Assembly (NCBI RefSeq): GCF_000003815.2
Contig: NC_049983.1
Coordinates: 9,343,470-9,407,469 of the forward strand
Direction: 5' to 3'
Length of the DNA stretch: 64,000 nt
Source of the DNA: Branchiostoma floridae
Lineage: Eukaryota; Chordata; Leptocardii; Amphioxiformes; Branchiostomatidae
This document shows positions 17,114-36,790 of the stretch, piece after piece. The notes under the pieces were generated by a model that had not been told where the DNA came from, ran no database searches, and worked only from the letters and a program-made list of their open reading frames with translations. The translations under genes were made by a program, and so were the position numbers. The stretch's first letter is position 1. Each line of letters starts with the position of its first letter.

Positions 17114-17297
17114 TTATTACTAGCATATGCATGGTATATACGTATTTAGCAACGCAAGGGTAACTAAAACCCCTTAAACATGCGACGTACATCTTGCCCT
17201 TCTTGATTTTGAGGCACCAGTTTGTGGACGTTTCTTTTACAAAGCCCTCCTCTATTTCGTATCCTACAGGTTGAAGACGTTGAAATCTTAACACGTT

Positions 17298-19847
17298 ATG
17301 AGGATCTTAAGGCGCACTCGAGGCTCTTTTTGCCTGGTCTTGGCTGTCGGGTTCCTTCTATCGTCCTTCTACATCCTTGTGGTGAGGAATCCCCGAGCCG
17401 GCACGGATAGAAAAGATGATGAGTTGGACACGAATCACATTGCCGGCGGAATGGACCAAGCTGTGAGGATGACTGTACGAAAAGACACCTCTCCCGGTCC
17501 CAGCAAAGCGCCTTACCTCACAACAAATGAGATTGGCAAAGCTTCAGCAGGAACTGAGGAACGTGCCAAAGAAAATAGTTTAAACGTACGTTTACAAAAC
17601 ACCGTGTCAACAACATCCACAGAGGCAATCGATCGCCACACAGAAGTACTCAAGATCGAAGAGATCGCAATGCACACGGAGCTCGAGGTCATCCAAGAGG
17701 GAAAACCTGTTCAAACACCAACACTGATTTCACGTAACGTCAACAAGGATCCTCTTAACGAAGCAGCCACTACCGAGGCCCAGGTCAGCAGCAAAGAATT
17801 TCATGAAATACCTGCAAATAACCAAAAGGTTTTCGAAGTTCATTCTGAAGTTGTGAACGGGAGATCTCTCTCTAGTTGGTCAACAGCGATGAGGCGTAAT
17901 AGTTCACAGAAAAGTGGAGGCCACAGCGATGACGTAACTCAAAGTTACAGCCGAGAGCAGCCGTTATGCAAATATCCGGACTTACAGATGGAGAGCTCAG
18001 AATTCAACCACCTTTTTGAAACAATAACAAACTTGAACTGCGGGCATGCCTCTATCAACTACTTGACATATCTAGACGGGAACTCGCGGACGGATATATT
18101 TCCTTGGGATGTAGTCAAACTAAACTCCAGCGCCATCTTACCGACACAGAAATTACTCAACTGCACGTACAGTAAGATTACGAGATTTGATGATTTCCAT
18201 AGCCTCTATACTACTTTGCATACAAAAGTATTTGTATCCAACGACGAAACTTTACAATTTCCGTTCAAAGACGAATTTAGTAAGGTCACCTGTTTCTTGG
18301 AAGAGGCTGTCTTTAACCAAACACAACAAGCATCTTCTAAAGTTATCAGAGAACACAATAACATGTTTGTACAGGTAGTAAGGAACGAATCTCTGGTCAA
18401 AGACAAAAAGGCGGAAATAGAGAAGGAAGGCCGAATGAAGACGGCCCTTGGACATGGTATGAACGTGCTCATGGTCGGAGTAGACTCGACCTCACGGATG
18501 AACTTCATGCGAAAACTGCCCAAAACTTTCAAGTACTTCACAGAGACTCTGGAGGGTCACGTTCTGAAGGGTTATCACGTGATTGGTGACGGCACCACGG
18601 CTCAGTTCATCGGCATGTTGTCAGGGTTTCACGAGGAAGAGCTGCCCAACGCGAAAAGGGGAATGGAAAATTCAACAACCTGCGACGCATTTCCGTTAGT
18701 ATGGAATAAGTTCAGAACGATGGGTTACACGACCATGAACGCGGAAGACGAAGCGGGCACTGGGACGTTCCAATTTCGTCTACAAGGCTTTGAAAATCGA
18801 CCAACTGATTACTACATGAGGCCTTTCTGGGTGGCCCAAGAAGGCCTCCCAGAGTTTGAAGAGTGGTTCTGTTTCGGAGCAACCCCTAAGCATCACTACA
18901 CCCTGAAGTATGCCCGCGATTTTGTGGAAGCATATCATGACGTACCCAAGTTTGCCATTGCGTTTCACACTGAACTCAGTCACGACAGTATAAACATGGT
19001 GCAAGTTGCCGACGAAGACATTCTGACACTCATAAAATCCTGGAAGGACAAAGGCTACCTCAACAACACCATTTTTATTCTTTTTGCCGACCATGGAGCC
19101 CGCTACGGTGGTCTTAGGAAGCTACTTCAAGGTCGACTGGAGGAGAGGCTACCGTTCTTTGGAATCGCTGTTCCTCCTTGGATGAAGAAGAGTCATCCTG
19201 AAATCGTTCGGAACCTCAAGAAAAACGAAGAACGTCTGACGACAGCGTTCGACTTCCACAAGACGCTGCAGCACGTGCTGGACTATCCCGGCGACCCCTC
19301 GGGTTTCCAGGGACACGGCCTCAGCCTCTTCCAGGAGATCCCGCTGAACCGAACATGCGAGGACGCCTCCATTGCCGATCACTGGTGTACCTGTCTGCAG
19401 TCCGTAACAGTCAACATACAGAACGTACTAGTTCAAGAAGCAGCAGGTTTCGCAGTCTCCCACATGAATCGTTTAACAGCAATGCACCGAAGCCTTTGTG
19501 CTGAGTTGTTCCTGAAGAATATAACTCACGCAGAACTTATCAAACCCAACAGCAAACTGCTACAATTTGGTGGCAGTGACCCACGGTCTCGAAATGCCCT
19601 GTTTGATAATGGTCGAAATCTTGATGTCCCTTTCCTGGATTTTCGAATTACGCTGGAAACTGGACCGAATGGTGGAGCATATGAGGTGTCAGTAAGGAAA
19701 TGGCTGTCTAGTGAGAAAACTGAGATAACCGCAGACATCAGCCGCATCAACGTGTACGGGAACCATCCCAGCTGCATCCAGGACAAATTTCCTCGTCTGA
19801 GGAAATACTGCTTCTGCAGAGAGTTCATGAATCCTGTGTCTCCGTAG
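17298..19847 (+). CDS. DUF229-family type II membrane protein (alkaline phosphatase/sulfatase-like fold)
   Basis: Single coding exon, 849 residues. Residues about 10-28 form a hydrophobic signal-anchor after an Arg-rich start, so the catalytic part should face the secretory lumen. A Ser/Thr-rich stalk (about 30-225) is followed by the DUF229 domain. Visible motifs of the alkaline phosphatase superfamily are MVGVDSTSRMNF (about residue 388, metal Asp and nucleophile-position Ser/Thr), GDGTTAQFIGMLSG (about 430), FHTELSHDS (about 557), LFADHGARYGG (about 594, metal Asp-His) and FQGHGLSLF (about 672). The start was chosen because it is the first ATG before the signal-anchor. It sits 29 bp after a good splice acceptor (CCTACAG, 17263-17269), suggesting a non-coding upstream exon. 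Substrate unknown. Family membership is confident; enzymatic activity is inference. Confidence 0.85.
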   Translation: MRILRRTRGSFCLVLAVGFLLSSFYILVVRNPRAGTDRKDDELDTNHIAGGMDQAVRMTVRKDTSPGPSKAPYLTTNEIGKASAGTEERAKENSLNVRLQNTVSTTSTEAIDRHTEVLKIEEIAMHTELEVIQEGKPVQTPTLISRNVNKDPLNEAATTEAQVSSKEFHEIPANNQKVFEVHSEVVNGRSLSSWSTAMRRNSSQKSGGHSDDVTQSYSREQPLCKYPDLQMESSEFNHLFETITNLNCGHASINYLTYLDGNSRTDIFPWDVVKLNSSAILPTQKLLNCTYSKITRFDDFHSLYTTLHTKVFVSNDETLQFPFKDEFSKVTCFLEEAVFNQTQQASSKVIREHNNMFVQVVRNESLVKDKKAEIEKEGRMKTALGHGMNVLMVGVDSTSRMNFMRKLPKTFKYFTETLEGHVLKGYHVIGDGTTAQFIGMLSGFHEEELPNAKRGMENSTTCDAFPLVWNKFRTMGYTTMNAEDEAGTGTFQFRLQGFENRPTDYYMRPFWVAQEGLPEFEEWFCFGATPKHHYTLKYARDFVEAYHDVPKFAIAFHTELSHDSINMVQVADEDILTLIKSWKDKGYLNNTIFILFADHGARYGGLRKLLQGRLEERLPFFGIAVPPWMKKSHPEIVRNLKKNEERLTTAFDFHKTLQHVLDYPGDPSGFQGHGLSLFQEIPLNRTCEDASIADHWCTCLQSVTVNIQNVLVQEAAGFAVSHMNRLTAMHRSLCAELFLKNITHAELIKPNSKLLQFGGSDPRSRNALFDNGRNLDVPFLDFRITLETGPNGGAYEVSVRKWLSSEKTEITADISRINVYGNHPSCIQDKFPRLRKYCFCREFMNPVSP

Positions 19848-21373: not shown

Positions 21374-23110
21374 TCATTGCAATGTCGCTTGGAGATGCTG
21401 CAGCCCGTCCGTCCATGGCTCTAACTTCTTCGCATCGGTAGTCTTAAAGTAGTACGTTCTCTTGGCGGTGGCAACGACCAAGGTGGAGTCCGCTGTGGTG
21501 GAAAATGCGTACCATTAGTAAGGTTTGTCTAACAAGATACCCCCCCCCCCCCCAAAAAAAAAAACATAGCTTCAATCAACAGCGATCTGGAATAAGGATA
21601 TATAGATTTCAAGGTACTGTCACATATGTAGATGACGCGTGAACACATCCTCACCCATGCGCACCAGGCACACAGATAGTTGTATCATACCTTAAGCTAA
21701 AGGCACAACTCGCCGTACGTGCAACTGCGTGCTGTATACGTGCCAAAACGCGGGCAATCTTTTGGGATCTGTAAGAGGTAATTACCGAATTCGTATGAAA
21801 TCCTTTGGGAGCACGCCGACACGCCGTAGCACTTATAGTGCATGCAGAGCTTTCTCTACGTTCGGGATACGGATTCACCTCCCATACGAGACCGGATGGG
21901 CGACGCGCTGGTTCCCTCGCGGGTTAGGAAACCGTACGTACGCAGCACGTGTAAGTACGGCCTGCATATGGTAACGTGGCAATCGCACAGAGTTTGTACG
22001 TTGTAAGCACGTATAACTCACCACTTGCGCAACTAATGATGCACGCAACCGCTCACAGCATGCAGACCACATACTTATAACCTTAAGCAACCGTACGAGT
22101 GACGTGCGTTGACTTACTCCCTCCCTGCTCTTGCCAGTCGTTCCCCACGTATAAACGTGGCGGACGTGGCCTCCCAAGAAAACGTACGGACAAAAAACAC
22201 GTACTGCGGGTTGTGCCCTTAAGCTAGGGGCACAACCCGCCGTACGTGCAAATACGTGCTGTCTACGTGCCAAAACGTGTATCCGTAAGTGGTAAGTACC
22301 GTCTCCGTACGAGCACGTAGGGAATTCGACGAATTTGGGAGCACGCAGACACGCCGTAGAAAATTAAGTGCATGCAGAACTTTCTCTGCGTTCGGGCTGC
22401 GGATTCGCCTCCGTACGTGCCAGTACGGGCGACGTACCAGCCCTGTACAGCCAATGAGCGCACAACGCACTGGCTCAGTGAGTTTTCTCACAGTCAATTG
22501 TTGTACGGACGGCGCACGTAGGACGTGCGTGCTGCGCACGTGGTGATTGCGTGTTCCGTGCTTACTCCGCGCTTCACTTGTTCACCTGTGAATGCCGACG
22601 CAATACAAACGTGGCAACCGCACAGAGACCGTACGTTGTAAGCACGTGCAACTCCCCTACCACTTGCGCAACGAACGATGAACGCAACCGCTCTAAGCCA
22701 GGCGTGGCGTGCAGACCACGTACTTACACTTTGCGCAACCGCGCGTGTGACGTGCGTTGACGTACTCCCGCCCTGCTCTTGCCAGTCGTTCCCCACGTTT
22801 TCAGGAATACGTGGCGGACGTGGCCTCCATAAAAAACGTACGGACAAATTGCACGTACCGGCGGGTTGTGCCCCAGGCTTTAGCTTTAGCTGCGGCCTGG
22901 TGTGCGAATATTGCGTGTGCGAAGGATGACCAAATCATCCCTTACCTGTGTGGATCCCGGTGATATCCCGAACAGGCAGCGATCCCGTCTGCAGCTGCCG
23001 GGAGGGTCCCCAGGAAATGGCGGCACGTGTCGGGTTGGAGGGATCAAGCTGTAGGCGCACCACCCGCCTGTGTTCGTCATTCCTCGCTGTTTTCTTTATG
23101 AATGACGTCC
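21374..23110 (-). CDS. PKS terminal exons 7-8 encoding a PH-like domain
   Basis: Exon 6 of the PKS can splice at AGAG|GTATAG (donor at 23356/23355) in phase 1. Exon 7 (22946-23110) begins after TTCCTCAG and ends at CACAG|GTAAGG. Exon 8 (21374-21492) begins after CCACCACAG and ends in TGA. All three phases agree, which chance would rarely give. The joined tail starts [20 protein letters not shown], contains [11 protein letters not shown] and ends with [19 protein letters not shown]. This is the strand pattern, basic residues and C-terminal helix Trp of a PH domain. Without splicing, exon 6 would read through 11 further codons to a stop at 23322-23324. Confidence 0.7.
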
Positions 23111-26100
23111 CTGAGGAATTGAATGAATATAGCAATGGTTTTAAAGTAGGGACCATATCCCAACTGTAACAGTAAAAGACAATAAAAATGCATACGTATG
23201 TATTCAGGACAGTACGTATTGACGCGTATGCACAGTAATACAAAGTATTGCAATTTCTAAAGTGTTTCAAGACTAACATGTTTTTGTAAGATGGACTTAC
23301 GATATGATACTGCATTTTATTTTATAATACTGAAAATTGTCCATGATTGACTATACCTCTTTTCATTTCGTGTATGTACCGCTCGTAGTCTCTGTGAATG
23401 GCGGACTCCAGTCTGTCAATCCGCGCCTCATCGTTCACAACCGTCCCGTTGGTAAGTTCTGACTGTCCCAGTAGCTGGATAGTCCCGTCCTCTCTCCACC
23501 ACGCCTGAAGCCCTGTCCCGACCACATCTTCACCAGTCCTCGGCCCTCCATCCTGACCCGTCACTACTTTATCTGTGTTCAGCAGACCCGGTGCAGAGAT
23601 GAACAGTTCACCTACTTGGTTGGATCCAAGGCACCTCCCTTGCCCGTCCAATATGTGCGCTGTTGTCTTGTGAACAAGACCTAGACTTGGAATACTGTCA
23701 CCGTTTGGCTGATTCACTTGCCGGTATTGTGTGTACAACACAGCCGAGTATGCATGTGGGCTACTAAGCATCAGGGTCAGTTGGGTGTCAGGTAGAACCA
23801 TTTGTAGGCGCGAGGCTAGGCTGTCGTCAACCCCTGGTACTGGTTGAAAAAGATGAGCCAGGTGAAGCTCGTGACCAGACTGAGACTGCAACTTCTGCAA
23901 GATACCTTCCCACACTTCACTGCGTATTGCCCCTACACTGGTGACTCGGTGCTCCTCCAGTGCGACCAGTAGCTTCTCTGGGTCATTCACTGTCGACTCG
24001 GGAAGGATGAGCAGTGGAGAACCAACAAGAAGGGGCAGGAACATTTCGTACAAAGCTTCTACGGACATGATTGGCGATATGAGGCACCCAACGTCATTTG
24101 CTCGGACAGGTAGAGCGTCCCACATCCATGTCAGACGGTTGAGCAAGCCGACATGGTTGCCTGACACAATGCCTTGCTTGTTGGAGTGGGTGTCTGTCAT
24201 AACAAACGCTTTCCGCGCTGGCATCAGTGGCAGGTTCGTGGATTCGTTCTCGTCTCTACCGGTTTGTTCCAAAGGTACAGTGACAATGTGACCGCTGAAG
24301 GACCCAAGCTTTGTTAGTAGATCGGACCTTGTGTCTAGATCCACAACGATGACTTGTATGTCACAGTTTCGGACAAGCTGCTGAAGTTGTTCAGCTTCAT
24401 CATGAAGGCAAATAGGAACGAACGTCAAGCCGGCTTTCCAGATTGCAAGAATGACGCAGGGTACCTCTTCAGAAGAGGACAGACAGACACCGACGTTCTC
24501 GTGTTTGCCTTTCAGGGCGGACTTGAACCGCATAGCTGCCATCAGGGTCATTGACACAACCGACATAGACGTTGTACTAATACCTGCCGTTTTTGTCACT
24601 TGTACGTTTCCACCCTGGCGTTTCAATTCTACAAGTGCGCTGGTCAAATGTTGAACTGATTGGTTCAGCTGACCATAGCTGACATTGTTGTTGCTTGTAA
24701 TGATAGCCGTGTGTGATGGCGTCCTGGAGACTTGCCTCTCAAAGAGTTTATCGAGACGACCAACAGATTTCAAGACATCGTCCATCGGAAGTATTTCCTC
24801 AAGCCCATCCTCGTCTTTAAATGAGATCAACCGCTTTGATCGAAATGTCTTCGGTCCGTTTCTTTTTCGTCTTGGCGGTGCAATGGGACCACTCTCTGGC
24901 AATGTCTTCTTGAGCTGGTCGTAGACTAAGTCGCTGATCGACTGAACCGTTGACTCTTGACTCAGTAAGGCGACAACTGGCACGTCTACATTAAGCTGTT
25001 TCCTGAATATGCTTTGGGCGTTTAGTGCTAGTTGGGAGTCCATTCCCAAATTAACAATTGATGTGTACATGTTTACCGTCTCGTCCTCTGCGCTCAACAG
25101 TTTGACAAAGAGGAGACGCGTGAAGTCCCCAAGTGACTTTTGCTGAGCTCGTTTATCCATCTTACTCAAGTTGCCGACAGTAACACTCGTCACCACGGCA
25201 GTGTCGTCTGGGCTTGACTCCGCGGGACCTCCTAGAACCACCTCTAGCCTCTTGAAGTCGGGCAGCTCCTGCAAAAACTGCCTGAACTTTGGTCGGTCGA
25301 GATTTACCACTGTAATCTGTGAAGGATTGGCGATGAGGCAAGTCTCCAAGCTCTCACAGATGCAGTCCTTGTCGATTGGAAGAATTCCTATCTGCTCCAG
25401 AAACTTCGCAACTTTTCTGTCTCTTTCCAACAGGCCGAGCTGCAAAGCACCCCAGTTGATGACCTGACCGCTTAGCCCCAGCTGGCGACGAAGATGCACT
25501 ATGCCATCTAGGACAGAGTTTGCAGCCCCGTAGCTTGTCTGTCCGCCATTACCCAGAACGGAGGAAACAGAAGAGAAGCCGACAAAATAGTCCAGGTTTA
25601 GATGTCGTGTCGCAAGATGTAAGTTCCAGGTCCCTGAGACTTTTGCACCCATGCCCCTCTGGAACTGCACGTGGTCTTGATTGATCAGAACTCCGTCACT
25701 GATGACGACAGCACTGTGAAACACACCCTTCAGTGGAATCCTGGGAAATGAGATATGAAGTTCTTCAAGTGCAGAGTTGACGCTGTCGTAAGACGAGACA
25801 TCGGCCTGCAGATATATGATTCTTGCTCCGAATGTTTCTTCCAATGTCTTCAGCTCTGCAACGACGTCCTGTTTGGGCTGACTCCTGGACATGATCGCTA
25901 TGTGGCCGGCACCTCTCTCCGCAAGGAATCTGACGGTGAGGAATCCCAAACCGGTGAGCCCACCGACTACGATGTAGGACGCATCTTTCCGGAAAAGTGT
26001 CTGCCTGGTGCAGATCACAGGAAGCTCTTGTCCATCAAGACGTAGGACACGGAGGGACTCACCAGCGACAGATCGATCATTCTCGGTCTCCTTTTTGTGC

Positions 26101-29100
26101 AAAAGGGAAGATGAGAGGTGACTGTTGGTGACTGGTATCTGAATCATAGCATGCTGAGGTAGGCTGTGAGAGAGCCACTTGAACACCTTTGGCATTATGA
26201 CCTTCAGGTTCGTCTCTTGAAACACGGTACATGTGCTAACCTGCAGGATCGTCACGTCTGATCTGATCCACATGGGAGACGTTCTGCTGCGTTCTTGATC
26301 CGACATCTGCCCACAAATGTACACCACACGACCGTTGGTTGCAATCACATCCGACAGCTGAGACCTCAGCCGCTTCCGTCTTCTGACGACGATTGCAACA
26401 TCGTACTCTTTCTCCGGGATTCCTGTGTGGCCATGTGCACATGTCATGATTTGACAGGTTGATCGTAATGCGTTGGCTACGGCTGCAATCACTCTCGTCT
26501 CGATCATGGCTGATTCTGCATGCTCATCTATCACCACAATCCGCTGCTTGGGCTTGATGTGTAGTTGGTTCACCAAGATCTCCCATGCCAATACAAAATA
26601 CGACAGACAAGGCGTTTCACACAAACATGGTAGGTCTGCCAACTTGTGGACTACTGGGGCAGGGAGTGAGACGACGGAAGAGGCCACAGCAGGGTAGATG
26701 CCCACAACAAAATCTCCAACGTGAAGTTTGCACTTCTCAGGCACCTTGGTTACTGTTCCCACAAAGTCCAGACCAAGTAGGTCCCAGTTCTGGTTGCTGG
26801 AAGCTGACCAGTGCACCACCGTTCCATCTTCTGATTCCCGCGTTACTGGATACAAGCTCCCCGGATGCACATGGAACTGTTGAACGTTTACAATGACACT
26901 ATCTTCAGCACCGGTAGGCGTTGCTTCAACATTACCTTCGTAAACGGCATGGATTCTCAAGGGCTCCATAGTGTCGGCTGTTTGAATCTTCAGTCTGCAA
27001 CCACTTTCGCCACGATTTGTGCGATACACTGCGCTTTCAGCATGCAGTGTAGATGACTGAATCTCCAAGAAGTATTTCTTACTTCGCACAAACATGATTT
27101 CGGTGTAACTATTCAGTTCTCCAGTGACTAGTTCATGCAGAAGCGTATGGGTCTCCCAGTGATCTCCTCTCGACAACTCGACTAGCTGTAAGGATGGGTA
27201 GGCAGCCTCTCTGATAGCACAGCGAACCAGGCCCCATAGAGGTGTCCCCGCTAAGTCTATCAGACTGACGGAGCTCTGGTCTTCCAAGAGAGTCGATGGC
27301 ATTTCCTGCCACATCGAGAACTGGACATTGCGCGTCACGACTTTCAGAGGGATTGTCTGCCCACTGGCTACAGCCATCTTGATCAGCTGCCTTAGACTTG
27401 CACAGGCGAGTTGGATTCGGGCGTCCAAAGATTCCGTGTCCGTCGTCTCTGCTTCTAGTAAACTAATACCGCAGCAATGAAGAACAAGATCAACGTCTGC
27501 TAGATTGACATTATTGACTTGAAGCATCTTCTGCAGTGCCTGTTCGTCATTCTTGTAATCTATGCTCTCGATGTCCTGGAGAGGGATGAAGACAGATTCG
27601 GAGCTGACCAGCGGCTTGATGTGATCCATGATCCCACATTCATCTTCAAGAACGAGACACCTGAGGTGACACGTTTTGTTGATCAGCTCAGGCCCAATCT
27701 TCCCCTTCCAGTCAGACGAATAACCTGTCCAACTTGTGGTGTAGAACATGTCCGCAAAGTTACTTGGGCTTCCTTCTTTCCAAAACCTGATGGTCAGTCC
27801 CCTCAGCTCAAGTATAATCTGACCATTGGTTCCAACTATGACTCCATTCGATGTCATGGTCCCTGCGGTTCTTCTGCTTTGTTTCACATACACCCACATC
27901 TGTTGTTCGGGAGGTTTCACGACTACAACACTTTCAATAGAAACTGGGAGAAAGCTCACTCGACGACCTGCTGACTGTTGTAAGATGTCCAGTCCTAGTA
28001 GAAAGTGTGCCTGCAGCAAGCAGTCGTGTATAGCAGGGTGGATACAACAGCTGTGCATCTCCTGTGCCACCAAGTCGTGGACATCGATGAAGGCAATGGC
28101 CTCCTTTCCACCAGGTCCGTCTCCATAGCGACATTCCCGCAGTCGGCTGAGCGTAGGTCCGTAGTAGAAACCTGTCGTTTCTATCTTGTTGTACAGATCA
28201 TCGTGGCTTACAGTATCATTGCAGCGATAGCGGATATCATCTACGTCCAAGTTCTCAATGGTCTGTTGCTTGTCTGGCCCATAGGTGACAGTCCCTCTCG
28301 CATGCAGCGCTCGCTCTGTCCGCTCTTCGAAATGGACCAGTTGTAAAGCTTCGTCGTGTTGGAGGCTCACATTGATATCAACCTCTCCCCCCTGACTCAC
28401 GGTAACTGGTGTAAGGAACTCCACACTTGTCCTGCAGTTGGACACTGGTTGTCGCGGTGTTATGACTTCTATGCACGCTGCTAGTCCCAGTTCAAAGTAG
28501 TGGGCACCGGGAACAACAACAGTGTCGTCCAACACGTGATCATACACGTAAGGGGTCGTCTGCTTGCTTATGGAGCACTTGTACAGTGGGGGAGTTGCCG
28601 ACACATGTGACAAGAACGGGTGAGTGAATCCGCTACTGAGGTCACGGCCTTGGCGTCGAGCTACAGCTTTTTCAGTTTCGAACCACAGTGGTTTTCGAGC
28701 AAACTGGTAGCGTGGTACGTCTATTGGAGTGTGCATTCCTTCAACGAAGAAAGCGTCCCAGGTCGGCATTAAACCCGCTTGATACAAATCGCAAAGACTA
28801 TGTAGGATAGATGCATGCTCTTGGTTTGGCTTGATGGACGCCACGTAGATCAAAATCACCTCAGATGCAATTTGTTTGATGTTGCTTCGCAGAGCAGCTT
28901 TTGGTCCGACCTCCATAACGATGTTTTGTTTTCCACGATGTAGGGCTTCTGACATTGCGGTACTGAACATCACCGGTTGCCTAACATTTCTCCCCCAGTA
29001 TTCTCCGGTAACAAATTCGTCCTCTGTAGCTCTCTTCCCTGTAACAGTTGAGTACAGTTCCACAGTAGGCGGCTGGCCTTGTAGATCTCTCAGCATCGAT

Positions 29101-32100
29101 TCTAGTACCTCTCGGATGGGCTCCATCTGGTGACTATGGTAGGCCGCTTTCACATCCAGCTCTCTCAAAAACAGTTGGCCGGCTAAATCGTTCTCGTTCA
29201 TCGCCTTCAGAACGGCATGCAGCTCATCGATTGCAGCATCATCGCCCGACACCGTGCAGGAGGTAGCGCTGTTTTCGGCAGCCAAGCCAACTTTACCCGA
29301 GACTTTACTGCACATGTCCAGCACCTTCTCTACCGGGAGATTCCCGACAACCAACATCTTCCCGCCGGTGACTTCATTTTGTAGACGTCCCCTGTGGTAG
29401 ATGACACGTACGGCCTCCGGTAGTGACAGGGTGCCTGAACAATGCGCTGCAGCCACTTCGCCCACTGAATGGCCGAGAATGGCATCTGGTGTGATGCCCC
29501 ACGACTGCCAAAGGGCGAACAGCGAGACTTGTGTAGCAAAAATGATGGATTGTGCTACAATCGGGACATGGAAGTCCTCTTTATCTGACAGCTTATCAAG
29601 TAGAGACCACTCCACGTGTTGACAAAGCAAGTCATCGACTTCAGTCAACTTTCTCCAGAATACAGGTTCTTTGTCAATCAGGTCCAGACATACGCCCTCC
29701 CACAACGTTCCTTGTCCTCCGAAAACAAAAATAACACGTTTGTCAGGCCCGACGTCATCCCCACGACCGGTCTTCCGTCTGATTGTCCTTGTGCGCACTG
29801 CTCCTTCTATGCCGGAAAGAGCATTCTCTAAAGATTGTTTTATGCCATCAACAGTGCTACCTGACACTGCTAACCTGAAATTGTGATGTGTTCTCCTCAC
29901 AGTTGACGTGTAAGCCAGCCTTTCAAGCGAGATGTCCGGGTTTTGCTCCAGATGTTCGATCAGGTCCTCAACCGACAGCTTCAAAGATTCCCTTTTCCTT
30001 GCAGACACGACCACCACGTACGCCTTTCCCTGCTCTTTGTTGACGTGTTCTGGAGACTCGTCATTGTCTTGGGGGAACTGTTCAACGAGTGCGTGAGAAT
30101 TTGATCCTCCAAACCCAAAGGAGTTCACGCAAGCCAATCTCCTGTCCTTTCCCCGCAGTGTCCAATCCAGTACCTCAGTCGGCACGTACAGTCGTAGGTG
30201 ATCAAAGTCTATGTTTGGGTTAGGTCTGTCGAAGTGCACGTTTGGCACGATTTGTTTGTACTTCATCATCAGTAGAACCTTGATGAGACCGGCCAGCCCT
30301 GCGGCGGACTCCAGATGGCCGATATTGCCTTTGACAGAGCCTAGAAGTACGGGGTCGTCGTCAGCCTTTCTTGACTTGCCTATGACGTTGCCCAGACTGT
30401 TTGCCTCCACTGGATCCCCGACTGGTGTGCCTGTTCCATGAGCTTCGATGTAGTCAATGTGGTCGGGGTCGAACCTGTAGCGTTCTAAGATGCTGCGGAG
30501 TAATTTCTCTTGCTGTGACTGTGATGGGGCAGTGATGGGGATGGTGGTGCGACCGTCCTGGTTCACTGCCGTATGAATGACGCCCCAAATGTGGTCGTTG
30601 TTTTCTAATGCCTACAGAATGCACATAACGGAAGGAGCTTTCCTTTTATTCGATTGAGGAACTGTTCTTGGGTTTCAATCATATGCGATGACTCTGCACT
30701 CTAACTCACACTATGTAGCTACCGCAACTGTTTTGCTTCTGAGTGCTTCTTGTTCTGGTATTTACATTTTCGTTCTTTGACGCAAACTTTGCCATGCACC
30801 TACATTTTCTCTTTGAGGGGGGGGGGGGGTATGCAGATCATATGTGTAGATAGTACTATACCAATGTACCTACCAAGTAGCCTTACCCAAAACTTTATCT
30901 CATATTGTATCTATTACCTTTTTTGTGCCATAAACTTATTTCAACCTGTTTCATAAAGTATTGTATTTTGGGCTCCATTACGTTAACAGGAAAAACGGTA
31001 AATGCTTTGAGCTGAGTCCAGAATAGAAAATGTCGAATAGGATGTTTGGATACAGCCTCTTTGTCATTTTCATTCTAAATGTATGAAGGGGCATGCGTAA
31101 GGGGACATATTGGCCAGTTACCCAGAAAAATCTATATTCAGAACTACTGCGTCATTATTGAACACATAAAAACTGACAATTTATTCTTAAGTTTATTCTA
31201 TGCATCTCATTGCAGGGTACTAAATGTGGAAAACACCACGATGTTAGATTTGAATTACAAATTTACACGCCATCTTGCCACTTGCGCTATTTTTTAACTT
31301 CCAAAAAAACGTCGCGCTTGCTTGTGTCACCTCTAGGTTCGCTTGTGTCACCTCTATAGGTTCGCTTCCGTCACCTCTAGGTGCCCCGGGGTCACGTCTG
31401 CGTTGTCGAACCCCGAAGCGACGCAAGCGTGACGCGAGTCTAGTGAGAGGGGACCTTAAACCACTAGTGGACCATACCACATCTTACATGGGTGGGGGCC
31501 AAACCAACTATACAAATAGTGTTGCTTACCTTGCTAAGCTTTTTAAGTATGACGACACCACATCCCTCCCCGCGGGCGTAGCCGTCAGCTGCAGCCGAGA
31601 AGGGTTTGCACCGTCCTTCGGGAGAGGCCATGCCCGCTCGGCACAGCGACACGAACATGTTCGGCCGGAGAATGAAGCTCACACCCCCACAGACAGCCAT
31701 GGAGCAGTCGCCTGAAATGATTTGTGTGTATATAAAGGGGTAGAACGGCAAAGAGTGTACACACTCTATTTTGATAAAAAGTGCTGCTAAACCTCAGAAC
31801 TAAATATTCAGACCATTCTTTGCCAGGCTTAGTTTGTCTTATGTTCACCTTCAGTAAGACTGTAAGAAACAATCGTCGCAAGTTTATATTGTCATTCTTG
31901 TTTAAAGAGGAAACAAGAGCGCAGTAGACCCATGTCCTGTCTATGCGCCCTCTACCCTGGAGAGCAGGTCCTACGGCAGGCATAAAAATCTGAATGACCA
32001 GGAATAAGGTGGGGTGACATCCTAGCCTCTACCAGGCCCCTTAGGTCGCAAACTGTACTCCTCGGCCAACCAACTCCTCCGGTGTGTTTTTTGTCAATTT

Positions 32101-34601
32101 GGTCAATTTCTACTATTTTTCCAGCGATCTGGTAGCCTGGCATTCAGCCGTATTGTGCTTTGGTCGCTCCCCTGAAGGAGGAAGCAGTATCATAGGGGAG
32201 CGACCAAAGCACAACACGGCTGGATTCCAGGCTAGCGATCTGGGGAGCCTAGTAGAGACTAGTGACATGTGGCCACAGGCCAAAATCAATGCGCGCCCGG
32301 ATGTCATCCACAGAATTAAGTCAGCGTGGCCTAAGCTAAGCTTGACGTCAGCAAAATTGCAAATACCTGTCTTGATAGCTTGGCAGCCGAGATGCACAGC
32401 GTACAGTCCTGACGAGCAGGCGGTATCCACGGTGAGGGCCGGCCCGGTCAGGTTGAAGGTGTAGGCCACCCTTGCCGCCACCAGAGAGGTAGCTGTCCCC
32501 GTGATCGTGTGGTTGGTCATCTGTGTCAGGTCTATGTCACCATCCAGTAGATACTCAGTGTTCATCAGGCCTGTTGGAAAAGATTATATGGTGTACATCA
32601 CTTAAAAATTGTTGAATTTTGGATTTTTTTAACATGGGTTTTTAAAATGTAGACTTTAGGTTGCTGTGTCACGAAATAGCCAACTGATCTGGAATTAGGT
32701 ATATGGCACTAGGAATGGAAAATGGGTTATACTAGTCCATTTTCATAGATGGTGTTTCATAGATGGTGTTCCGGAAGAATCTATTTTTGTATGGTGCAGT
32801 GAGATACCACCTATAGCTACAATGTATGAATTAGTAGTAGCTTAGTTATTCTTACCAACGAAGACACCGGTGTCGCTGCCATGCAGTTCGTCCATTGTGA
32901 TGCCGGCATTTTCAAACGCCTTGTACGAACACTCCAGCATGAAGCGCTGCTGGGGATCCATTCGTGATGCCTCCTCGTCCCTCAGGCCGAACAGGCTTGG
33001 ATCGAACATCTTGTATCTGGAACGTTTTGAATCAGTTAAGAAAAAAAAAACTGTTATGCACTTAATGTATCATGTAATACGAAAGTTACTGTACTTACGC
33101 GTTGTGATATTTGTAAGTTGGGACATAGACTGGTTTATTGAATTGAAACTCATTGCAGCCAAAAAGCTGAACTGCGACATGTACAATTACGAACATATTG
33201 CATACGTTACAGGTAAAATACGTCAATCAAATTATATACTAGTACTTGTGCCCCCAATTTACAACACATGATAAAATGCAATAGCCAATACTCATCAATG
33301 CTAAGTAAATCTTGAGAAGCAAACAGTGTTTAATAATCGTGCACCATATTACAATATTTTATTCGAGGCTTTTTTATGAATATTTTTTTCTTGAGTCACT
33401 GTGCTGTTTTCTGAACTGGTTACCATACCTACCACGACATCATTGACTGAAACAATTGGATTACCTTGGGACGAAATCTTTGAGTCTGTGGAATGATATT
33501 TTGATGCCGCCATGTTCAATAACAGGAGAATGGTGTATTTTGGGTGCAAAGGTGCATTTGTGTGTTAAATGAATATAATACTATCAGTGTTGTAGAATAC
33601 AAAAAGAAAAGGAAGTTATACCCTTGGACAAACCCCGCCCTCTGCACGAATATTTTCCCGGGTGCGTTCTTGTCCGGACTGTACCAGGCGTCCTGGCTCC
33701 ATCGGTCAGGTGGGATTTCCTGAAGGAAAAATTGACACGAACGATATCTTATTTGTCCCGGACGTATTGCTAAGGAAATACCTTTCCGGAAACAAACGCA
33801 TTTATTCAAGTTTTGTCGATTAAAAAAAAGCATTTGACTCCGTTGTACCAGGTGTACTGGCTCCTCCTGTCAGGTGGGATCAGGAGGAAAACAACACATT
33901 TGTCTTTGAACAGGTCCTTGGAACAAAGTCATATTCATGCGGAAACTCACATGTGCAGAGTAACGATGGAACTGTCGTATCAGCACGGGTTTGACAAATA
34001 TTTCTTGAGTCATTCATTATTGGTTACGCTTGTTACGGATGGATTTTGATAGGCGCTCAGTACAAGCGGGTGCTCTTTTGTATCAACATAACTCTGTTAT
34101 AAATAGTGGTAGAACAACATTGTTACAACGACTTAAAGATAAGTTGGTGTGTTGCACCGAAGGGCGGTTACTTCGGCTATAGCTATACCGATACAGATAC
34201 GGAAAAGAAATGTTAGATTGTAGTGGTATTGGTAGTAGTGGTACTAGATTTTCTGACATGTATAATCAAACCTTCTGCCATAATCCGAGTACTGATACCG
34301 GTAAGCTGAGGTTTATATGACGTGCAAAACAGCATATATAATGGGAAATAATTTTGATCTACGCTCTGCAATTAGCAAAATTAGAATCAGAGCCCACCCC
34401 CTAGAAATAGAGAAAAGGTGGTACAAGAAGCTACCTGTGTGCGAAAGAATGTGCAAGGTAAAGAAACTAAAAGTGCTATCGTACCTCCATACAGTCCTCC
34501 CCGTTAACCAGGACTCTCCAGAAGTCGTCCGGGCTGTCTGCGTGCGGGAACCGGCACCACAGACCCACGATGGCGATAGAGTCCTCCGGCGGAACCGCCA
34601 T
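21374..34601 (-). CDS. Type I polyketide synthase with C-terminal adenylation-like and PH-like domains
   Basis: Eight exons (minus strand), phases consistent, about 2766 residues: 34485-34601 (ATG 34599-34601), 33622-33719, 32856-33016, 32367-32570, 31530-31711, 23357-30611, 22946-23110 and 21374-21492 (stop 21374-21376). KS has a full catalytic set: DTACSSGL (Cys), [12 protein letters not shown] (His, about residue 310) and [12 protein letters not shown] (His). AT: FGGQGT and GHSVGEV (Ser, about 633). [16 protein letters not shown] (His, about 946) and [11 protein letters not shown] (Asp, about 1116). A structural pseudoKR and an ER-like segment ([13 protein letters not shown]) without a clear nucleotide-binding loop follow. 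KR: GGLTGLG (about 1804), SSVSS and YGAAN. ACP: LGMDS (phosphopantetheine Ser, about 2112). Residues about 2180-2670 resemble an NRPS adenylation domain with lost core motifs. Residues 2673-2766 read like a PH domain. It likely makes a reduced polyketide on a single iterative module. Product unknown. Confidence 0.88.
21541..21563. repeat. Poly(C)-poly(A) tract
   Basis: A run of about 13 C followed by about 10 A in the last PKS intron. Confidence 0.9.
21700..22218. mobile_element. ACGT-rich MITE, copy 1
   Basis: 519 bp, flanked on both sides by TTAAGCTA (21692-21699 and 22219-22226), an 8-bp target duplication. The ends are AAGGCACAACTCGCCGTACG and CACGTACTGCGGGTTGTGCCC. The interior is packed with GTACG/CGTAC and ACGTG words and is GC-richer than its surroundings. 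It lies in the last PKS intron. Confidence 0.8.
22227..22874. mobile_element. ACGT-rich MITE, copy 2, in tandem with copy 1
   Basis: 648 bp, same orientation as copy 1, ends GGGGCACAACCCGCCGTACG and GCGGGTTGTGCCCC. It shares the central TTAAGCTA with copy 1. Internal blocks such as GGGAGCACGCAGACACGCCG and GCATGCAGAACTTTCTCTGC correspond to blocks in copy 1, with scattered changes and indels. Confidence 0.8.
31310..31458. mobile_element. Degenerate CTCACTGCACTTG-family MITE remnant with internal tandem repeat
   Basis: The right arm (CGAACCCCGAAGCGACGCAAG, then GAGAGGGGACC) matches the right arm of the copy at 14513. Its left half is replaced by three tandem copies of a roughly 22-bp unit, GCTTGTGTCACCTCTAGGTTC. 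It lies in PKS intron 5. Confidence 0.55.
32133..32234. mobile_element. TAGCCTGG-type perfect hairpin MITE with 9-bp target site duplication
   Basis: 102 bp, almost entirely palindromic. TAGCCTGGCATTCAGCCGT at the left is answered by ACGGCTGGATTCCAGGCTA at the right, and the arms continue (GTGCTTTGGTCGCTCCCCT/AGGGGAGCGACCAAAGCAC). GCGATCTGG flanks both sides (32124-32132 and 32235-32243). It lies in PKS intron 4. Confidence 0.88.
33118..33180 (-). repeat. Non-LTR retroelement 3'-tail remnant
   Basis: GACTGGTTTATTGAATTGAA followed by TGCAGCCAAAAAGCTGAACTG resembles the tail block at 34855-34935 that follows the RT gene, so it is a solo, diverged tail of the same kind, in PKS intron 2. Confidence 0.5.
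33841..33885 (-). pseudogene. Degenerate second copy of PKS exon 2 fragment
   Basis: GTACCAGGTGTACTGGCTCC and TGTCAGGTGGGATCAGGAGG match the exon 2 stretch at about 33680-33722 (GTACCAGGCGTCCTGGCTCC and GGTCAGGTGGGATTTCCTGA). It sits about 160 bp away in PKS intron 1. It lacks a usable splice setting and looks like a partial exon duplication. Confidence 0.55.
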
Positions 34602-34854: not shown

Positions 34855-36484
34855 GATTGGTTTATTCATTCAATTCAACAAGAATGACAAATTAAAAGCG
34901 GTCTTGCAGCCCAAAGGGCTGAATTGCACTGCTTGACAGTCTTTTTGTATGTTATTTTACACAAAAATTATTATAGGATAAGCAAATGCGGAGTAAACAA
35001 ATTATTACAATTTAAAATGCAAAACAATAATACGCAACACCGTCGTTAAAAGTAAATTTGAGCTATTTACAACAACATCATACATTGATGGGCTATGTGT
35101 TGATCAAGCGTGCCATATATGGGACGGCGCTGTTTCTATATCGCTCTGTTCTACAATGAACCAAGTCCAAGTTGTTTGAGGAGCGGGTCTGTCTGCCACT
35201 AATACTCTGTCTGTCCGGTGGCAGGAGATGACGGTACTGGCTGGATGTTAGAAGGGACTTAGCAAACTTAAGTGTCAAGTTCTCACGCCTCTGGTGAAGT
35301 GAGGGTAGGCCAAGCTGTGAGCAGGCTTCAGCATAGCTGGTGTAGTTAGCTCCCAGGATTATCCGCACTGCTCTGCGTTGGATTCTCTCGAGTTTGTTGG
35401 ACAGGGATGTTGGCAGCCCGGGATGCCACACCGGTGCTGCATACTCGATGATCGGACGGACGTAGGTGGTGTACACGATCACAAGGTCTTCAATTCCGAT
35501 GTGGAAGTGTTTGAGTTTTCTGAGAAAGAACAAACGCTGACTGGATTTAGAGTACATGTAGTCCACGTGGGCATTCCACTTCAGGTTATACTGCATTAAG
35601 ACGCCAAGAATCTTCATGGTTTGAACCTGTCGTAGTTCGTTGTTGTTGATTTTGAGGGGCGGCAGTATGGATACTGATTTGCTGAACTTCACATGTAGAA
35701 CTTGGCATTTTCCAGGATGTAGTACCATACTGTTTTCACCAGACCATTTCTCTAGGTCAGAAAGGTCGTTTTGCAGGGACGAAGGTGTTACGGTGGGGTT
35801 TCTGATCTCTAACAGGTTTAAATCGTCCACAAATTTCCATCTTTTGGCTGAGATTTGACGCGCCGCACTGTTGATGTAAGCCACAAAAATCAGAGGCCCA
35901 AGAAGAGTTCCCTGGGGTAGGCCGCACGTTATGGTGGCACTGTCGGAGAGGGTTCCTTGATAGCGGACGACTTGGCGTCTCCCCGTGAGGAAGTCAATGA
36001 TCCACGACGTAAGAGACGGACGCAGACCCATCTCCATCAATCGGGTTACAGCGATGGTGTGGCTTACCCGATCGAACGCTTTGCTGTAGTCAGTAGATAC
36101 CAGTGAGCACAGGGTTCCCGGTTTGTCTGACGCCTTGTACAGATCGTTGGTTAAGTCCAGCAGGCAGTGCGTAGTCGACCTCCCTTTCAGGCATCCAAAC
36201 TGTTGGGGGTCGATCTGAGGTAGTATGTCAGACAGAGTCCACTGTGTGATGAATCCTTCAGCGATTTTGGCCAACAGGGAAGTCAATGATATTGGGCGAA
36301 GTTGATCGACAGAGGGCGGTTTTGTTTTGGGCACCGGCACCACGATCGCACTTTTCCACTCGTCAGGTACTTTCCCCTGTAGAAGAGACGAGTTGATGAC
36401 GTCAGAAAGTGGTCCACTCAGTTCATATGCAAATTCCCTGAGGAGTTTTCCCGGGATACCGTCCGGTCCAGCAGCTTTCCTGGT
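34855..36484 (-). mobile_element. 5'-truncated non-LTR retrotransposon with reverse transcriptase
   Basis: Coding runs on the minus strand from about 36484 to the stop at 35093, open throughout (about 460 residues). Sequence begins at the RT finger motif KAAGPDGIPGKLL and goes on to PVPKTKPPSVDQLRPISLT, STDYSKAFDRVSH (palm), GLPQGTLLGPLIF and KFVDDLNLL, where the usual Y/FADD box is FVDD. It ends with a thumb/C-terminal domain (RRAVRIILG). The endonuclease and ORF1 are missing. The 3' tail (34855-34950) carries the block TTGCAGCCCAAAGGGCTGAA. CR1/jockey-type is the likely clade (inference). Confidence 0.85.
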
Positions 36485-36486
36485 TT

Positions 36487-36790
36487 TTACTTTCTGGTTC
36501 TACGGTCTAGGCAATCGTGGATATATCTGTCTACTTGTACACAGTGAGGGATATCGCCTCCCAGAATGTAGTTGAATTTATCTATCGAACAGAGAGTAGC
36601 AAATTCTTTAGAGCAAGTGGAAAGTAATGTGAACAGCTCTGTGCGTTTGTCATTATATCGTGAACAATCCATAACAAAGTGACGTTCGTCTTCGATCTTA
36701 TTTGAGCAGAATGGACAAAACCTCTGGTCACGGGGAATTTTAGTATATCTTCCGGCTTCTATATTTAGTTTGTGACTACAGATTCTTATC
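36487..36790 (-). mobile_element. 3' end of a second non-LTR retrotransposon
   Basis: The minus strand encodes RFCPFCSNKIEDERHFVMDC, running on to LSTCSKEF and ending CLDRRTRK then stop at 36487. The CxxC...HxxxxC finger is the typical C-terminal tail of many RT polyproteins. It is in a different frame from the RT gene next to it, so the two are separate elements joined near 36485. Confidence 0.65.

Follow-up and report, generated by a model that had tools for sequence, protein, structure and literature searches.

A recurrent PH-like tail behind a degenerate adenylation-like core in polyketide synthase genes of Branchiostoma floridae

What might a pleckstrin homology (PH) type module be doing at the end of an animal polyketide synthase (PKS)? 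The question is raised by a minus-strand gene in a stretch of 64,000 nucleotides of the Branchiostoma floridae genome (hereafter the window), which an earlier note had read as a PKS with an adenylation-like domain and, at its very end, a PH-like one. The predicted chain consists of ketosynthase (KS), acyltransferase (AT), dehydratase (DH), an unnamed stretch, ketoreductase (KR) and acyl carrier protein (ACP) domains, followed by an adenylation-like (A-like) core and a tail of 94 residues. The PH-like tail on a PKS stood up to the present analysis and proved to be a family trait, carried also by members that lack the A-like domain; seven further PKS genes of the genome have the same two-exon tail, so it is more than a chance feature of one locus.

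Recurrence of the tail among paralogous genes

The genome searched comprises 513,431,437 bases in 431 contigs, and a scan for the KS C-terminal family located at least 15 KS loci in it, including a short and distant one (C7). The two-exon tail is present at eight or more of these 15 loci, with phase 1 at both junctions in all eight genes; a strongly diverged tail would escape detection, and the count is thus a minimum. A search with the tail of the window gene identified two further PKS genes, A (C9:14.93M) and B (C9:12.87M), whose tails are split at the same place and match the two exons of the window tail at 78 and 73% identity for A and at 38 and 44% for B. Gene A corresponds to the window gene exon by exon, as does B apart from having exons 1 and 2 as one block. 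A profile of exon 7 detected the first tail exon downstream of the A-like exon in three more PKS genes, C, D and E (C1:34.27-34.46M; E-values 1.2e-5 to 2.4e-5), for which the second tail exon was assigned from frame and phase, and a query with D added the tails of F (C1:15.87M) and G (C1:28.88M); a KS locus of the same clade lies some 10 kb from each. Exon 7 or its counterpart measures 165 nt in six of the genes and 162 nt in the other two. The idea that the tail is confined to the window gene is accordingly rejected.

These eight genes do not amount to eight independent lines, since F and G share about 98% identity over the compared stretch and two of the genes at C1:34.4M are 97% identical in the A-like region. 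Genes F and G lie 13 Mb apart on one contig and may reflect a recent duplication or an assembly duplicate. Gene A (at C9:14.9297M) contains an in-frame coding minisatellite (a PNGDRT-type repeat) within its A-like region, shortly followed by a one-base frame break, for which a pseudogene, an allele or an assembly error are candidate explanations.

The elements preceding the tail differ among the genes. In the window gene, A and B the order is ACP, A-like core, PH-like tail, and in the three C1 genes C, D and E it is condensation (C) domain, A-like core, PH-like tail; Pfam names a thioesterase (TE) and a C domain in genes C and D, and the C domain and A-like stretches of E were recognized by similarity. 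Gene G has a C domain, then a linker that aligns weakly to the start of the A-like region of D, and then the two PH exons, and Pfam finds TE and C domains in it and no AMP-binding domain (TE-C-PH). Gene F, for which 1.9 kb was read from the C domain on, resembles G from the end of that domain onward. The tail is therefore not tied to an adenylation domain, and loss of the A-like core from F and G is the likelier direction of change.

Fold and proposed role of the tail

Profile comparison bears out the PH-like call at the level of the family, most of the similarity coming from the second half. Searched against the PDB, an eight-tail profile returned eight matches at E<=10, every one a PH protein; their E-values run from 1.1e-4 to 0.67, and four are below 0.01. 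A six-tail profile returned nine matches, seven PH proteins and two antibody light chains. The PH domains of centaurin-delta 1, ARAP3, an ARF1 GAP, Plasmodium APH, TAPP1 and IRS1 match the tail profile, and none of these is a megasynthase by chain name; some of the matched chains we take to be PH domains on general grounds. Alignment of the eight tails with six PH domains from this genome, not all of them complete, using hhalign gave a probability of 89.9% (E 1.7e-6, 33 columns), the corresponding value with six tails being 81.1%; a reversed profile scored 0.8%, and 200 column shuffles reached a maximum of 4.8%. The clade I tails alone gave 85.8% against the PH domains, and the two tail clades align to one another at 91.3% over 86 columns. 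The window tail has three Pfam matches, all to PH families (E 0.0034 to 0.057; best 17.8 bits with a cut-off of 25), and a sub-threshold PH match is found in seven of the eight tails (that of C being deduced from counts); some tails also weakly match unrelated Pfam families. Across the eight tails 17 columns are invariant, among them K6, T8, H14, W34 and W82, and the invariant tryptophan expected in the C-terminal helix of a PH domain is present. Similarity to the PH superfamily over other folds is thus found at the profile level, and the Pfam score of the tail sequence itself falls short of the curated cut-off. Taken together, the profile comparisons make it very probable that the tail adopts a PH fold.

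Purifying selection acts on the tail, over which the window gene and A differ by a dN of 0.127 and a dS of 0.409 (NG86, as for all such values here); between D and G the tail values (0.214 and 0.662) are similar to those of the TE-C stretch (0.195 and 0.706); over the pairs computed dN/dS is about 0.22-0.45, with dS near saturation in pairs that include B.

The explanation that we favor, with a little better than even confidence, is that a dead A-like core is followed by a PH domain selected for localization or docking of the megasynthase at a membrane. The tail would hold the enzyme there, most likely via phosphoinositides, a membrane-associated partner protein or both, so that synthesis would take place at the site of the product's export or use. 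The KS, AT, DH, KR and ACP domains would yield a partly reduced chain, and because no TE domain was found by Pfam in the window gene, its release may follow some other route, for instance hydrolysis by another enzyme or handover to a partner. The A-like core would act as a spacer or structural adaptor with no part in amino-acid loading, and is probably a remnant of an ancestral C-A module. We infer that the tail is translated, folds as a PH domain and localizes the enzyme; its recurrence in seven sister genes suggests a defined location within the cell for these enzymes. Membrane tethering would be a plausible role. All eight tails have K6 and a basic residue at position 16, which together with T8 and H14 would fit a ligand-binding edge, and the basic residues are compatible with phosphoinositide binding or tethering.

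Several observations weigh against this explanation, some of them bearing on the fold and others on the proposed function. None of the eight single tails reaches the Pfam gathering cut-off, the tail of E gives no sub-threshold PH match, and phmmer with the window tail alone against the PDB returned no PH chain (its single match, a ribosomal protein at E=0.77, is dismissed as chance). The similarity to PH domains falls in the second half of the tail, the clade II tails alone reach just 23.8% against PH domains in hhalign, and a profile of exon 8 found no clear second tail exon in C, D or E (best E 0.028). The phosphoinositide motif of PH domains, K-Xn-[KR]-X-R, is only partly kept, its middle residue being the invariant histidine. 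Lastly, the PKS at C4:19.51M, which falls inside the clade of the window gene in a KS-AT tree of 15 rows (87/95, not starred, with a long-branch warning), has an open frame that ends right after the ACP. A tblastn search of 7 kb there with the window protein gave no A-like or tail match; a diverged tail could escape this search, which is weak for such tails because the same query missed those of C, D and E. The position of this gene suggests that the tail was lost at C4:19.51M, and the tree leaves the relation between the two tail-bearing clades undecided.

The alternative that survives best, possible and in our estimation rather unlikely, is that the PH-like domain is a protein docking or dimer-stabilizing element, contacting a tailoring enzyme, a transporter or another PKS subunit, and makes no contact with lipid. 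Among PH domains, protein binding and weak lipid binding are both common, and such a role would accommodate both the histidine in the partly kept phosphoinositide motif and the placement of the tail directly behind the A-like core in six genes. An internal interface with that core is nevertheless not required, since two genes have the tail without it, and in every one of the eight tails the first 45 residues carry a net positive charge (+5 to +7), which is what a lipid-facing edge would show.

The adenylation-like core

The adenylation-like region described in the earlier note is present, with the qualification that only the core remains, lacking a C-terminal subdomain and with degenerate ATP motifs. 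Pfam gives an AMP-binding match of 80.2 bits in the window gene, and the PDB relatives of the core are mostly adenylation domains of nonribosomal peptide synthetases (NRPSs), the best being tyrocidine synthase 1 (E 1.8e-18). The alignment to these domains stops at the hinge (GTIQLLGQ versus GTIEFLGR), and with only about 35 residues between this point and the PH exons the C-terminal subdomain must be absent. Adenylation domains are commonly described by a P-loop, a TGD motif, a hinge arginine and this C-terminal subdomain. At the P-loop position the window gene has TDTHSNKQG, B has HEADNGRR and D has TTTTTPTR, the TGD and hinge motifs are lost, and the ATP motifs are mostly degenerate among the members aligned, so that the features of an active NRPS adenylation domain are not found and the core looks catalytically dead. 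The window gene also has no C domain by Pfam, and paralogues C and D combine a C domain with the degenerate core; neither arrangement, C domain plus active adenylation domain being needed, makes an NRPS-PKS hybrid. A single-sequence AlphaFold2 model of the core (window 23358-24791) was uninformative, with a mean pLDDT of 34.6.

It is very improbable that the core and tail together form a working, unusual adenylation module, in which the PH-like domain takes the place of the C-terminal subdomain and an amino or fatty acid is activated to release or extend the polyketide. Such a module would be in keeping with the purifying selection on the core (window gene versus A, dN 0.133 and dS 0.394, as in the tail; the first 1800 codons of exon 6, at 0.111 and 0.483, are under stronger constraint), with the short distance from hinge to PH exons, and with the glutamate retained by C, D and E, which read YSTLE where active adenylation domains read YGPTE. 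Against it stand the lost motifs, on which an active module is rejected, the missing subdomain in the aligned members, the lack of a C domain in the window gene and the occurrence of the PH-like tail where the core is absent. Equally improbable is a decaying remnant or gene-prediction accident, the protein ending at an in-frame stop 11 codons beyond the exon 6 donor site: this would suit the weak single-sequence PH scores, but both tail exons, their splice sites and their phases are kept in eight genes, the tail is 79% identical to that of the nearest paralogue, and an accident of reading is rejected on exon phases together with the dN/dS values given above.

Gene model, relatives and meaning

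The eight in-phase exons proposed in the earlier note were confirmed: every border was reproduced from the window sequence, all seven introns are GT-AG, and the coding sequence of 8301 nt forms one frame of 2766 amino acids with its sole stop at the end (Table 1). The paralogues lend further support to this predicted model. Pfam recognizes the ketoacyl-synthase family in exon 4 and the KS C-terminal family in exon 6, together with AT, DH (in two parts), KR, ACP and AMP-binding domains. The five PKS domains that had been named, KS, AT, DH, KR and ACP, are thus all present, and the motifs carrying catalytic meaning in the KS (DTACSS), KR (GGLTGLG and SYGAAN) and ACP (GMDS) were read; in the DH, HDCLLQ is present and the catalytic histidine and aspartate are kept, with the glycine of HxxxGxxxxP replaced by aspartate. 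The ER-like (enoyl reductase-like) stretch that had also been named is a mere hint, since the region between DH and KR has no Pfam name and its best PDB match, the CurF enoyl reductase, has E=0.15; Pfam found no zinc-type dehydrogenase family in the window gene or in three scanned paralogue stretches, and a PF13561 match in the paralogue scan falls on the KR. With KS, AT, KR and ACP and their catalytic residues in one chain, the gene encodes a type I animal PKS, probably an iterative and partly reducing one (KS-AT-DH-KR-ACP).

Table 1. Features of the window gene (window coordinates).
Feature	Positions	Strand	Remarks
Exon 1	34485..34601	-	start codon at 34601
Exon 2	33622..33719	-	
Exon 3	32856..33016	-	
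Exon 4	32367..32570	-	KS active-site Cys (DTACSS)
Exon 5	31530..31711	-	
Exon 6	23357..30611	-	from C-terminal part of KS to end of A-like core plus linker
Acyltransferase domain (PF00698)	28860..29732	-	Pfam
Dehydratase (PF21089 + PF14765)	27777..28622	-	Pfam
Weak ER-like stretch	26517..26777	-	PDB match to CurF enoyl reductase, E=0.15
Ketoreductase (PF08659)	25443..25982	-	Pfam
Acyl carrier domain (PF00550), with GMDS	24924..25109	-	Pfam, motif
Putative pseudo-adenylation core, N-terminal NRPS-type core	23463..24746	-	Pfam AMP-binding, motif alignment
Linker of about 35 residues ahead of PH exons	23357..23462	-	
Exon 7	22946..23110	-	165 nt, phase 1 at both ends; first part of PH-like domain
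Exon 8	21374..21492	-	second PH-like part, invariant Trp of C-terminal helix, stop codon

Intron 7 contains a diverged direct duplication (window 21690-22858; spacing 527-654 nt, 86-90% identity). Just 5' of the PKS gene is a reverse transcriptase open reading frame (window 35093-36499; RVT_1, 89.8 bits), probably of a LINE, and past its 3' end, on the opposite strand, lies an open frame of 851 amino acids for a DUF229 (sulfatase-like) protein (window 17292-19847).

Animal PKSs with additional C-terminal domains are a known kind. Hojo et al. (2015; PMC4604110) tabulate B. floridae PKSs with the arrangements KS-AT-DH-KR-AMP (DH asterisked), KS-AT-DH-KR-(ACP)-TE-C-AMP (KR asterisked) and KS-AT-DH-KR-ACP-TE-C (ACP asterisked), as well as an acorn worm PKS, KS-AT-DH-KR-ACP-C-AMP. 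The B. floridae entries resemble the three arrangements found here, and some of them are probably the same genes; AMP carries no asterisk in that table, and the word pleckstrin is absent from the main text. The same source places the medaka PKS OlPKS near the apical membrane, a precedent for a localized animal PKS; the account of it mentions neither a PH tail nor the means by which the enzyme is localized. In a survey of animal NRPSs (PMC10531068) the adenylation domains of Branchiostoma group with Ebony and condensation domains are present, while neither pleckstrin nor PH domain occurs in the main text. Mollusc PKSs with or without C domains (PMC10764717) share the feature of variable C-terminal regions behind a conserved KS part, and the main text of that work contains neither adenylation nor pleckstrin. 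A PKS bearing a PH domain turned up in none of the searches made of an open-access library, only some of which were aimed at that pairing, supplements lying outside the search. The PH tail appears to be new, as does the detail that the adenylation domain of these PKSs has decayed.

An AMP-binding label on these PKSs need not imply amino-acid activation, and one genome offers a natural series, comprising A-like core with PH tail, TE-C-A-like core with PH tail, TE-C with PH tail, and a relative that looks tail-less, so that the individual C-terminal pieces can each be examined for their role. A broader scenario, which we advance tentatively and regard as doubtful, is that in a chordate PKS lineage the PH tail serves as a signal-controlled address to phosphoinositide-marked membranes, having arrived via an NRPS-like C-A unit whose adenylation domain later became inactive and, in some members, was lost altogether. 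Should the tail prove to be a functional PH domain, it would explain directly, and in a form open to experiment, how an animal PKS comes to sit at a membrane.

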